A stretch of 42,843 nucleotides of DNA from an uncultured Erysipelotrichaceae bacterium (GTDB taxonomy: Bacteria > Bacillota_I > Bacilli_A > RFN20 > CAG-826): contig CADCLZ010000001.1 of NCBI GenBank assembly GCA_902802365.1, positions 75,393-118,235 on the forward strand, given 5' to 3'. The notes under the pieces are model-generated. The model was not told where the DNA came from and searched no databases. It saw nothing but the letters and a program-made list of their open reading frames with translations. Made by a program: the position numbers and the translations under genes. Every line of letters starts with the position of its first letter. The stretch's first letter is position 1. This document shows positions 19,525 through 42,843 of this stretch, piece by piece.

Positions 19525-19530
19525 GTTCCC

Positions 19531-19615
19531 GCCACCGCGAGGGAAGGCTTACGAACCAGGTCAGGTGGGGAACCAAGCAGCCTTAAGTTTGAATTCCTTG
19601 CGCGATGGTTTTATT
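19531..19615 (+). ncRNA. ffs: Signal recognition particle RNA, small bacterial type
   Basis: The 4.5S-like SRP RNA pairs with Ffh to target nascent membrane proteins. The apical domain is clear: GGTCAGG, a short TGG stem, a GGAA tetraloop, CCA, then AGCAGCC, the hallmark asymmetric loop of helix 8. The ends pair too: CCACCGCG (about 19532-19539) with CGCGATGG (about 19601-19608), and GGGAA with TTCCTT. It ends in a T-rich run (TTTTATTTTTT). The position just before tadA matches Bacillus, where scr lies beside tadA. Confidence 0.92.
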
Positions 19616-39872: not shown

Positions 39873-40508
39873 ATGAGCAAGAAATATGGCCCAAAGAAGA
39901 TGATGAACTCCTCAAGGTTCGTGGATCTTTTGGATGGCATGAGCCAAGAAGACCTTGATAAAGTCGCGGATAAAATCGGGGTTTATGTCAAAGAAAACCC
40001 CGAATATTGCGACAAAGGGAACTATCGGCACCTCTCTAACATTTTCACCTGCATGGCTATTTATCGGACTTTGATTGAAAAAGGGAAAAGTCCTCAGGAA
40101 GCCGAAGAAATCACCTTCAATGCGATGTATCAATATATGCAAAAGCAGCGGAAAACCTTCCAAAGGCTTTCCAAGAAAGGCTGGTTCTGGGGGCTTATCA
40201 AGAAGATCGTCCCGCTTGGCTTTAAAAAAGGAAGCGGCTATGGCTGGGAATACGCCTGGCATAAAGACGACCCGAAGAACCAGTTCAATTTCGAATGCAG
40301 GAGATGCATTTATCAGCAGCTTTTCAAGAAATATGACTTAGTCCGTTTTGGGCCGAAATTCTGCTATAACGACATCGTCGTTTATGGCGAATTGGATCGA
40401 ACCGATTTCAAGAGGACCAAAACCCTATGCCGCGGCGACGAGGAATGCGACTTCAAATTCGTGCGTTACAAAAAAGACGAGAAATTTGAAAGAAGCCAGA
40501 GCGTTTAA
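39873..40508 (+). CDS. ATC hydrolase-like protein (L-2-amino-thiazoline-4-carboxylate hydrolase family)
   Basis: A 211-aa soluble protein. The C-terminal half resembles the ATC_hydrolase family of Firmicutes: FNFECRRCIYQQLFKKYDL, GPKFCYNDIVVYGEL, then FKRTKTLCRGDEECDFKF, where the paired cysteines and the final CDFxF are typical. Most members have no demonstrated ATC hydrolase activity, so the name denotes the fold family. The N-terminal half is helical and charged. A Shine-Dalgarno GGAGA precedes the ATG, with TATAGT (39852-39857) as a likely -10. Codon use is native. Confidence 0.75.
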   Translation: MSKKYGPKKMMNSSRFVDLLDGMSQEDLDKVADKIGVYVKENPEYCDKGNYRHLSNIFTCMAIYRTLIEKGKSPQEAEEITFNAMYQYMQKQRKTFQRLSKKGWFWGLIKKIVPLGFKKGSGYGWEYAWHKDDPKNQFNFECRRCIYQQLFKKYDLVRFGPKFCYNDIVVYGELDRTDFKRTKTLCRGDEECDFKFVRYKKDEKFERSQSV

Positions 40509-40603: not shown

Positions 40604-41122
40604 TTAATCGCCGCTGGAGAAGGAAACGCTCGATCCTTCTTGGTTCCTGCGGTCCAAAATGCAATCAATCGCGATCACGAGGGCGCAGAAGAAGGCCTGG
40701 TCTTCGCTATCATCGATCGTCAAGACGAAGGAGTCGCGGAGCGAGACCCTGCGGGCGACGTGCCCAACATCGGCGCCGTTTTTCGTGACGCGGAAGTTGA
40801 AATCGAGGATGTTGCCGTCGAGGACGATCTCTTCGGGATAGCGATCCACGGTGAATTTGCTGCGAAGGGAGAGGAATTTCTTGGAGATGCGGCAGATGAT
40901 CTGCTTGTTCTCCGGATTGATGATGAAGGCGCGGCGGGTGAAGAGCCTCCAGAACTTGTTGCGGATGATGAAAAGCAGCTTGCCGTTTTTATCGTAGAAC
41001 CGCTTCTTGTGGGTGAAGGTGAAGATGTTGCCCTTCACTTCATAGATGTGGTTGTCCGCCATATCGGTGATGTAGGAGGATCCGCCGAGGGTGATCCATT
41101 TGTTTCTGATTTTGTATTCCAT
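40604..41122 (-). CDS. LURP-one-related / YxjI family protein
   Basis: A 172-aa protein with the tubby-like LOR fold pattern: short beta-strands such as MYEVKGNIFTFTHKKRF-type repeats (IYEVKGN, KLLFIIRNKF, FTVDR, ILDFNFRV) and a hydrophobic C-terminal helix region (AFFCALVIAIDCIL). The Bacillus homologue YxjI has no established function; scramblase-like folds are related. It is transcribed toward the ATC-hydrolase-like gene. TATAGA lies 8 nt upstream of the ATG with AGAGG overlapping it, so both leaderless and Shine-Dalgarno starts are possible. Confidence 0.8.
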   Translation of the reverse strand: MEYKIRNKWITLGGSSYITDMADNHIYEVKGNIFTFTHKKRFYDKNGKLLFIIRNKFWRLFTRRAFIINPENKQIICRISKKFLSLRSKFTVDRYPEEIVLDGNILDFNFRVTKNGADVGHVARRVSLRDSFVLTIDDSEDQAFFCALVIAIDCILDRRNQEGSSVSFSSGD

Positions 41123-41396: not shown

Positions 41397-41447
41397 GAAA
41401 AAAATTTTAAAAAAATGTATTGACACACTCATATATAGGTGTAAACT
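41397..41447 (+). promoter_or_regulatory. Strong promoter of the giant structured RNA
   Basis: A perfect -35 TTGACA (41420-41425), 16-nt spacer and -10 TAAACT (41442-41447). An A/T-tract region (41397-41419, runs of A and T) lies directly upstream like an UP element of stable-RNA promoters. Predicted start about 41453-41455, right where the hairpin-rich sequence begins. Confidence 0.75.
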
Positions 41448-41453
41448 AATCGA

Positions 41454-42843
41454 ACCCGCAAGGGAAACGGGGATGCGAATCTCCGACACTGCGGGAAGGA
41501 TCCAAGAGCTTGCTCTTGGATGCTAAAAGGAAAGCTGGACGCCCACGGTTCACTAAGAACCGGAAAGGCCCAACTCCTTCGAAAGAAGGGACCCAACGCC
41601 GCTTGAACGACGTTGGAGCAGGAATCTCCGCCCGCGGTAAACCGCAAAAGAGAGAGGCCTCCGGAAACCGGCGCAAGCCGGGAGGAAGGAAGGTCAAGGG
41701 CCCTGGCATTGAGCCAGGAAGCCACCGCCGAAATGACCCTGGCGGTCCGTGATCGGAAAAGAAAGGGAATTCCGAAAAGCCTTGGAAAAGGAACATTCGG
41801 AAGCAGGGAACAAGCGACTTCACGCTTCAGACCCTCGCGGGAACGGAAACGCCCGCCCAGTGCACTGGAAAAACGTTGCGTGCCGACAAAACCTCTCTCC
41901 CTGAGGCACAATGCGGCAAAGGGTAATACCCGCTAGGAATCCTCCCCAGCCTGGTAAACCAGAAAAACGAAGGAAGACGGGAAGAAACGGCCCCAAAACC
42001 GTGAAACCGCCAAATCGAGGAAGGCAACTTCCTCCAAAGGCATAGCCACCCATCAGGTAGACCTGAGAATCTGGCAGAAAGGAATGACCCCTCCGCAAGG
42101 GAGGCCATCCTGGAGAAGGGCTGCATCGAAAGATGATGTCCGCAACGGAATTCCTACCGTTGCCTAGTAGAACTAGGAATTCAAATCTGGAATGTGGAGC
42201 GATCCACAAAGGAGCTCAAAACTCCAAGCCCCGAAGAAAGGCTCAGGTAAACCGAAAAATCTCTTCTCCCTCCATCTCCTCCCATCGTGAAATCCCTTGG
42301 TGAGATGTCTGGGTAGCCACCTTAACTGGTGCGGCGGGAGCCTCTCCGCCAAGTGAAACTTGAAGATGAGGTTGCGAATCACAATCTGGCTTCGGCCTCG
42401 GGGTGATCCGTGAACGCCTGGAAATTCATAACCAGGTCGGTGCCAATAGAGGCTCGGCGCGCGGTAAACCGCTGGAAAAGCCTCGACCCTAGGCTACGGT
42501 CTAGGCGAGATCGAAGACGCAAGTCCTCGAAGGAAGTCGTTCCACCCTGCAATTCGTGAAGTCGGAACGTGGCAAAGATACTTAGGCGAACGAAGACGTA
42601 CCCTAAGATCGATGTCGAGACCTGCTAGAAGCAATTCAATACAGGCCTAGGAAGATAAGAGATCTTCTCGCCGGTAAACCGGAGAAACAAAAACTTGATC
42701 CTGAATGCGATTCCCTTTCAAGAAGGAACCGAGGTAAGGACCGATTCCCTCGGGAAGTGGCTGGTTGGAATCTCCCACACGGTAAACCGTAAACATGAAA
42801 TCCCCCGTCAACTTCGGAGTCTTGAAGACGTTAACTCGAAAGA
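41454..42843 (+). ncRNA. Giant ornate structured non-coding RNA, 3' end outside window
   Basis: About 1.4 kb without a credible protein gene on either strand, following a strong promoter. It is built from closely packed hairpins separated by A-rich joints. Clear examples: 41500-41521 (9 bp, CUUG loop), 41546-41562 (6 bp), 41576-41589 (GAAA loop), 41593-41616 (6 bp), 42017-42034 (7 bp, GCAA loop), CATC-GAAA-GATG near 42125, GCAACGG/CCGTTGC near 42143, CCTAGT/ACTAGG near 42162, and TGTGGA-GCGA-TCCACA near 42194. GNRA loops recur, which are typical tertiary contact points. A GGUAAACC hairpin occurs six times. I see no group II domain V, group I core, rRNA or tmRNA. It could be a new class or a very large relative of ornate RNAs such as OLE, GOLLD or ROOL. 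Confidence 0.8.
41634..42790 (+). repeat. Six GGUAAACC hairpin modules within the RNA
   Basis: GGTAAACC occurs at 41636-41643, 41953-41960, 42246-42253, 42463-42470, 42673-42680 and 42781-42788. In five copies the two bases outside each side also pair (GC/GC, CT/AG, GC/GC, CC/GG, AC/GT), giving a 4-bp stem with a UAAA loop; the copy at 42246 has only the two core pairs. Differing but paired flanks argue for conserved structure. Most copies are followed by an A-rich joint (AAAAG, GAAAAA, GAAAAAT, GAGAAAC). Confidence 0.75.

Follow-up and report, generated by a model that had tools for sequence, protein, structure and literature searches.

ROOL, GOLLD and OLE, three large RNAs whose function is unknown, assemble into multimers without protein, ROOL being an octamer and GOLLD a 14-mer (PMC12286853). 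Their long-range contacts were first seen by covariation and were later shown to form between chains, and the raiA motif, a large RNA as well, is a monomer (PMC12286853). GOLLD has a length of over 800 nt (PMC12286853), and about 600 nt is the size given for OLE in PMC9723947. The RNA gene described here comes from a stretch of DNA of 42,843 nucleotides (hereafter the window), taken from an uncultured Erysipelotrichaceae bacterium with a genome of 1.16 Mb in 140 contigs. Contig C1 ends with this window, whose RNA region spans positions 41454–42843; the features of the RNA lie on the plus strand.

This region is gene-free, no convincing gene being revealed by open frames and Pfam. A putative sigma-70-type promoter was recognised from its sequence at 41420–41447 (−35 box TTGACA at 41420–41425, −10 box TAAACT at 41442–41447) and is preceded by A-tracts. 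The same pair of elements with its A-tracts is present upstream of nearly all aligned RNA copies, and this recurrence bears out the initial annotation, which had noticed a gene-free stretch with a promoter and a start near 41454. The suggestion that the RNA continues past the window edge was also right: contig C1 ends there, and the homologues run ~60 nt further. An intrinsic terminator of the type GACACCACGCAGCGATGCGTGGCGTTTTCTTT, common to nearly all copies, lies downstream of the RNA, and comparison with homologues indicates that the ~60 nt leading up to it are absent from the window copy. The length of the RNA is 1382–1467 nt in 26 aligned copies (1392 nt in the window copy, which is cut by the contig end), with a mean pairwise identity of 65% (range 54–99%). 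Four copies from a second genus have the same layout and measure 1424–1511 nt. Full copies were found inside long contigs, among them G181:C7 (570 kb), G028:C3 (130 kb) and G004:C16 (122 kb). Many copies (e.g. L048, L049 and L099) have a palindrome such as AGATACC..GGTATCT immediately before the promoter, which is spelled differently in other lineages (CTATACAGTGTATA in L033) and is possibly an operator.

The region was tested for translation. No open frame of conserved length or frame was detected among the copies, and the three ORFs tested gave no Pfam match, so the non-coding reading stands; a 160-aa open frame is present on the minus strand of the RNA region. The description of a densely hairpinned RNA was confirmed. 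Folding was stronger than that of dinucleotide shuffles in the window copy (MFE z = −5.2) and in four other copies (z = −3.0 to −7.3), and raw counts gave 3–13 GNRA hairpins with stems of at least 4 bp per RNA. One CUUG loop is visible, at 41509–41512.

Covarying helices, which the initial annotation had named as a check in homologues, are very strong along the whole length of the RNA. In the first alignment, made like the others with ordinary MAFFT, 19 of the 20 top covarying column pairs could form Watson-Crick or GU pairs in at least 85% of the sequences, as against 8% for all pairs. A scan for 4-bp helices yielded 66 antiparallel helices reaching a covariation score of 30, and none of the parallel controls reached it. 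The structure model comprises 228 pairs in 51 helices; 161 of these pairs have changes on both sides, compared with 90 in shuffles, and none of 500 shuffles reached the structure. Within the model, 94.4% of the cells were paired, versus 80.4% in shuffles and 37–48% when the structure was slid. Since the 228-pair structure was derived from the same alignment, the comparison of antiparallel with parallel helices is the fairer test. Evolutionary support for the fold is overwhelming, and we regard it as virtually certain that the locus is a stand-alone non-coding RNA gene with a conserved fold. The best conserved part of the alignment is columns 1100–1300.

The RNA is a chain in which one pseudoknot module is repeated about seven or eight times. 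Each module consists, in this order, of a hairpin formed by helix a, a directly adjoining GU..AC hairpin, an A-rich linker and a strand complementary to the helix a loop, with which it pairs. Hairpins of the type NNN-GUAVAC-NNN occur 4–8 times per RNA (mean 5.5) versus 0.03 in shuffles, and modules, counted with the score threshold set at 9, number 5.5 per RNA, versus 1.05 when the flanks are shuffled. The middle bases of the G(UNNA)C loop vary (UAAA, UACA, UAGA and UGCA). In five modules both pairings are backed by changes on both sides in the alignment. These are module 2 (41725–41767; helix a 41725–41729/41741–41745, loop 41737–41740 with 41764–41767), module 3 (41933–41974; loop 41940–41943 with 41971–41974 across CUGGUAAACCAG), module 4 (42143–42192; loop 42151–42154 with 42189–42192 across CCUAGUAGAACUAGG), module 5 (42227–42266; loop 42233–42237 with 42262–42266 across CAGGUAAACCG) and module 6 (42333–42371; loop 42341–42344 with 42368–42371 across CAAGUGAAACUUG). 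Module 1 (41626–41655) is partial, with pairing of loop and downstream strand around the CGGUAAACCG hairpin (columns 212–215 with 239–243, and 221–232, with changes on both sides), and is poorly kept in the window copy itself. Module 7 (42440–42484) is the most conserved part of the family. Its helix a (GUGCC/GGCGC) is nearly invariant, and the pairing of its loop GAGGC with GCCUC across GCGGUAAACCGC includes two pairs with changes on both sides; it forms the core of the covariance models R1 and R2 described below. In module 8 (42650–42697), helix a (GGAAGA/UCUUCU) covaries, and the pairing of loop UAAG with CUUG across CCGGUAAACCGG is invariant and possible in all 26 copies.

The chain is tied together by a long-range CUUCG/CGAAG loop-loop contact between columns 430–434 and 1296–1301, spanning ~870 columns. 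Changes on both sides are seen in four of the five pairs, and the contact scored 39.6, whereas no long-range parallel control of equal length exceeded 14.9. In the window copy the 5' side (41818–41822) reads CUUCA and the 3' side (42591–42595) CGAAG; the resulting A-C mismatch is confined to the window copy and is absent from every other copy. A second long-range helix, between columns 185–188 and 1432–1435, was dropped because its score of 18 was near those of the parallel controls.

One important question is whether this RNA belongs to a known family. No Rfam family gave a match at gathering score over the RNA, and in a permissive search the best sub-threshold hits had E = 2.4 for the region and E = 0.11 for a second copy. 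The sole Rfam match in the window was the housekeeping bacterial small SRP RNA (RF00169) at 19529–19614. The ROOL model (RF03087) gave no match in the RNA at E ≤ 5 or in other copies at E ≤ 0.5, the GOLLD and OLE models did not match the RNA, and group I and II introns, known ribozymes and retron families gave no match at permissive E-values. Neither ARAGORN nor Rfam detected a tmRNA in the RNA (locus L114 carries a separate tmRNA gene), and no tRNA was found in the window. These searches agree with the earlier remark that no core of known ornate RNAs or of self-splicing introns could be recognised and, with the strong covariation and the lack of a conserved frame, they support the proposal of a new large RNA class. 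The open-access papers searched do not describe an RNA of this kind, and by that measure a modular pseudoknot-repeat RNA is previously undescribed.

Comparison with the described systems showed both likenesses and differences. Like ROOL, the giant RNA is large, ornate and rumen-linked and has multiple pseudoknots, but it is about 2.5 times longer and differs in module architecture. Like GOLLD, it is large and ornate, with a better conserved 3' region, a variable 5' region and a long-range kissing contact found by covariation, but it is nearly twice as long. Whereas ROOL and GOLLD are phage-linked, the giant RNA is chromosomal: none was found in the phages or prophages searched, and the location typical of ROOL, in phages or prophages and often near tRNA islands, was not observed. 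OLE is likewise a large structured RNA of Bacillota with a conserved fold of its own, but the giant RNA lacks a fixed gene neighbourhood. Pseudoknots are strung together in tmRNA, and the preQ1-II riboswitch is a pseudoknot with an inserted hairpin. The likeness to these two is one of topology only, with no model match, and the absence of a fixed downstream gene argues against a riboswitch.

A nucleotide search gave matches in 19 of the 31 genomes of the genus. Covariance models A1 and R1, which represent the conserved 3' core, detected the RNA in two genera only, with 23 carriers among the 224 genomes searched for the family and 23 among the 279 for the order; model R2, which also takes in divergent copies, recovered the same 23 carriers and found 36 copies in them, one to three in each. 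No match and no additional genera were obtained when R2 was run against 394 further genomes sampled from the class. The carriers are two genera of rumen or foregut Bacilli. In an exact-pattern scan of 84,980 species, each represented by one genome, 33 stretches matched, all but one of them from uncultured MAGs labelled Bacilli, Bacillales, Erysipelotrichaceae or Firmicutes; several of these MAGs are labelled as coming from the rumen, omasum or abomasum of goat, roe deer or water deer. A match in Pseudomonas (L109) was taken as chance. The viral contigs, phages and plasmids searched contained no copies, and an origin from such elements was rejected on this basis. Twelve of the 31 genomes of the genus are without the RNA, and since four of these have no more than 10 contigs and a completeness of 94–100%, the RNA is accessory.

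Three divergent copies constitute subfamily B (L058:13573–15153, L059:6166–7726 and L060:8432–10029; 1561–1598 nt). ROOL itself exists as a separate gene in two of the 31 genomes of the genus, G009 and G020 (L133:1501–2065 and L134:1501–2046), and both genomes also carry the giant RNA. The hairpin GGGUAGCUCCC is present in all three subfamily B RNAs and in the two ROOL genes of the genus and is absent from the main subfamily A; within about 1 Mb of loci it occurs only in subfamily B and ROOL RNAs, a restriction that was noticed post hoc. A hairpin with the loop U(C/A)GCU closed by GG/CC, as conserved in ROOL, is found in all three subfamily B RNAs and in no subfamily A RNA. GGGUAGCUCCC appears to correspond to the self-pairing loop L18 of ROOL. 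A conserved palindromic loop, GAAUUCAUAA, was considered as a dimer contact; this candidate was weakened by the presence of GAAUCCAUAA in subfamily B.

The surroundings of the RNA are ordinary. Across about 30 copies no neighbouring gene is conserved, and the flanking genes are chromosomal ones, for example those encoding NAD synthase, seryl-tRNA synthetase, M18 and M3 peptidases, a RecN/SMC-like protein and ZIP and TrkH transporters. The M18 aminopeptidase family occurs near 8 copies and was not accepted as a partner because its side and distance are inconsistent among them. In the window, the RNA is preceded by genes for an L-2-amino-thiazoline-4-carboxylic acid hydrolase family protein (39873–40508, plus strand) and a LURP-one-related protein (40604–41122, minus strand). 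The lack of a conserved neighbour, together with these ordinary surroundings, argues against cis-regulation and in favour of a trans-acting RNA, and we infer that the RNA acts in trans.

With these data, the following working model may be proposed. The sigma-70-type promoter would drive a transcript of ~1.45 kb ending at the intrinsic terminator, and this transcript would fold into the chain of about seven or eight pseudoknot modules tied by the long-range loop-loop contact. A-rich linkers, GNRA loops and kissing loops might pack the array into a large, mostly RNA-only architecture, probably homo-oligomeric as in GOLLD and ROOL, although the RNA is a member of neither family. This architecture could serve as a structural scaffold or container, close to the scaffold or cage that the initial annotation had put forward. 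The scaffold or oligomer reading draws on the protein-free multimers of ROOL, GOLLD and OLE and on the GGGUAGCUCCC hairpin that subfamily B has in common with ROOL. Against this reading stand the monomeric state of raiA, the absence of the hairpin from subfamily A, the lack of a link to phages and the covariation data, since the alignment offered no convincing case of adjacent-column covariation of the kind expected for symmetric kissing loops. Taken as a whole, the reading as a non-coding RNA gene that stands on its own, acts in trans and functions as a scaffold is in our judgement modestly probable, and an RNA-only scaffold or assembly would have an even chance of being the mode of action. 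More tentative, and somewhat short of an even chance, is the proposal of a giant RNA class of 1.4–1.6 kb in which a tandem pseudoknot array forms an RNA-only multimer larger than those of ROOL and GOLLD, with subfamily B sharing the self-kissing hairpin of ROOL. The giant RNA would rank with the longest structured RNAs of bacteria, those of the ribosome aside, at nearly twice the size of GOLLD, and it would allow two questions to be tested: whether assembly without protein is general among giant ornate RNAs, and whether one self-kissing hairpin is shared by RNA families that are unrelated. Its accessory and multi-copy occurrence in rumen bacteria would make its role searchable by comparing carriers with non-carriers.

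The abundance of G(UNNA)C hairpins, at 4–8 per RNA against 0.03 in shuffles, could also mean that they are binding sites for a protein, which would be titrated by the RNA acting as a sponge or would form a large RNP with it. Repeated sites are typical of sponges, as in CsrB, which titrates CsrA. However, the middle bases of these loops vary, the hairpins are fixed inside the pseudoknot, which points to a structural role, the remainder of the 1.45 kb is structurally as conserved, and no neighbouring gene is conserved; we consider a protein-binding function unlikely. A ribozyme, or part of a selfish element moving between sites, would be in keeping with the large ornate fold, the varied contexts, the mosaic copies and the accessory distribution, but it is quite improbable given that no intron, ribozyme or retron family matched, that no linked mobility gene was present among the flanking genes tested, that orthologous copies retain their neighbours in G017 and G028 and that the viral and plasmid sequences searched contained no copies. 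A decayed protein-coding stretch or an assembly artefact, which the 160-aa minus-strand frame and the chimeric look of the last 726 bases of the window might suggest, has a negligible probability and is ruled out for the family by covariation, with compensatory changes over the whole length, frames that are not conserved and have no Pfam match, and full promoter-to-terminator copies inside long contigs (such as G181:C7 and G004:C16).

The window copy itself is a mosaic. Its 5' part (41452–42117) is native to this genome, the nearest copies being L040, L097 and L056, and is ~58% identical to the G017 copy; identity changes sharply at 42118, and from there to the window end only one mismatch was found in 725 compared bases, whereas protein-coding DNA is 67–70% identical to that of other genomes of the genus. 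The 3' part as assembled (42118–42843) is thus G017-like and lacks the terminator-proximal ~60 nt. Contig C2 of the same genome has a 3' fragment of the RNA at its end (L065:18800–19514), with the same three nearest copies as the 5' part of the window copy. Judging from these identities, and from the A-C mismatch peculiar to this copy, the true 3' half is probably on C2, a single gene having been split where C1 and C2 end. The final 726 bases of C1 would then be a foreign extension from the assembly, which probably makes the window copy a contig-end chimera; alternatively, the mosaic may be due to a very recent recombination. The family does not depend on this copy, since full copies lie inside long contigs. 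Local identity of 98–99% was also observed between L040:7830–9290 and window positions 41863–41974, and between the first 100 columns of the two L041 copies, the copies being otherwise 50–70% identical; such stretches probably reflect recombination or gene conversion between copies. In G013, two contigs (with copies L049:4930–6378 and L051:13763–15214) have identical terminator sequence at their ends, as expected if near-identical 3' ends break the assembly. Finally, the copy at L046:8505–8666 is missing 9 nt from the most conserved module (GGCTCGAAACCGC), and is either defective or the product of an assembly error.
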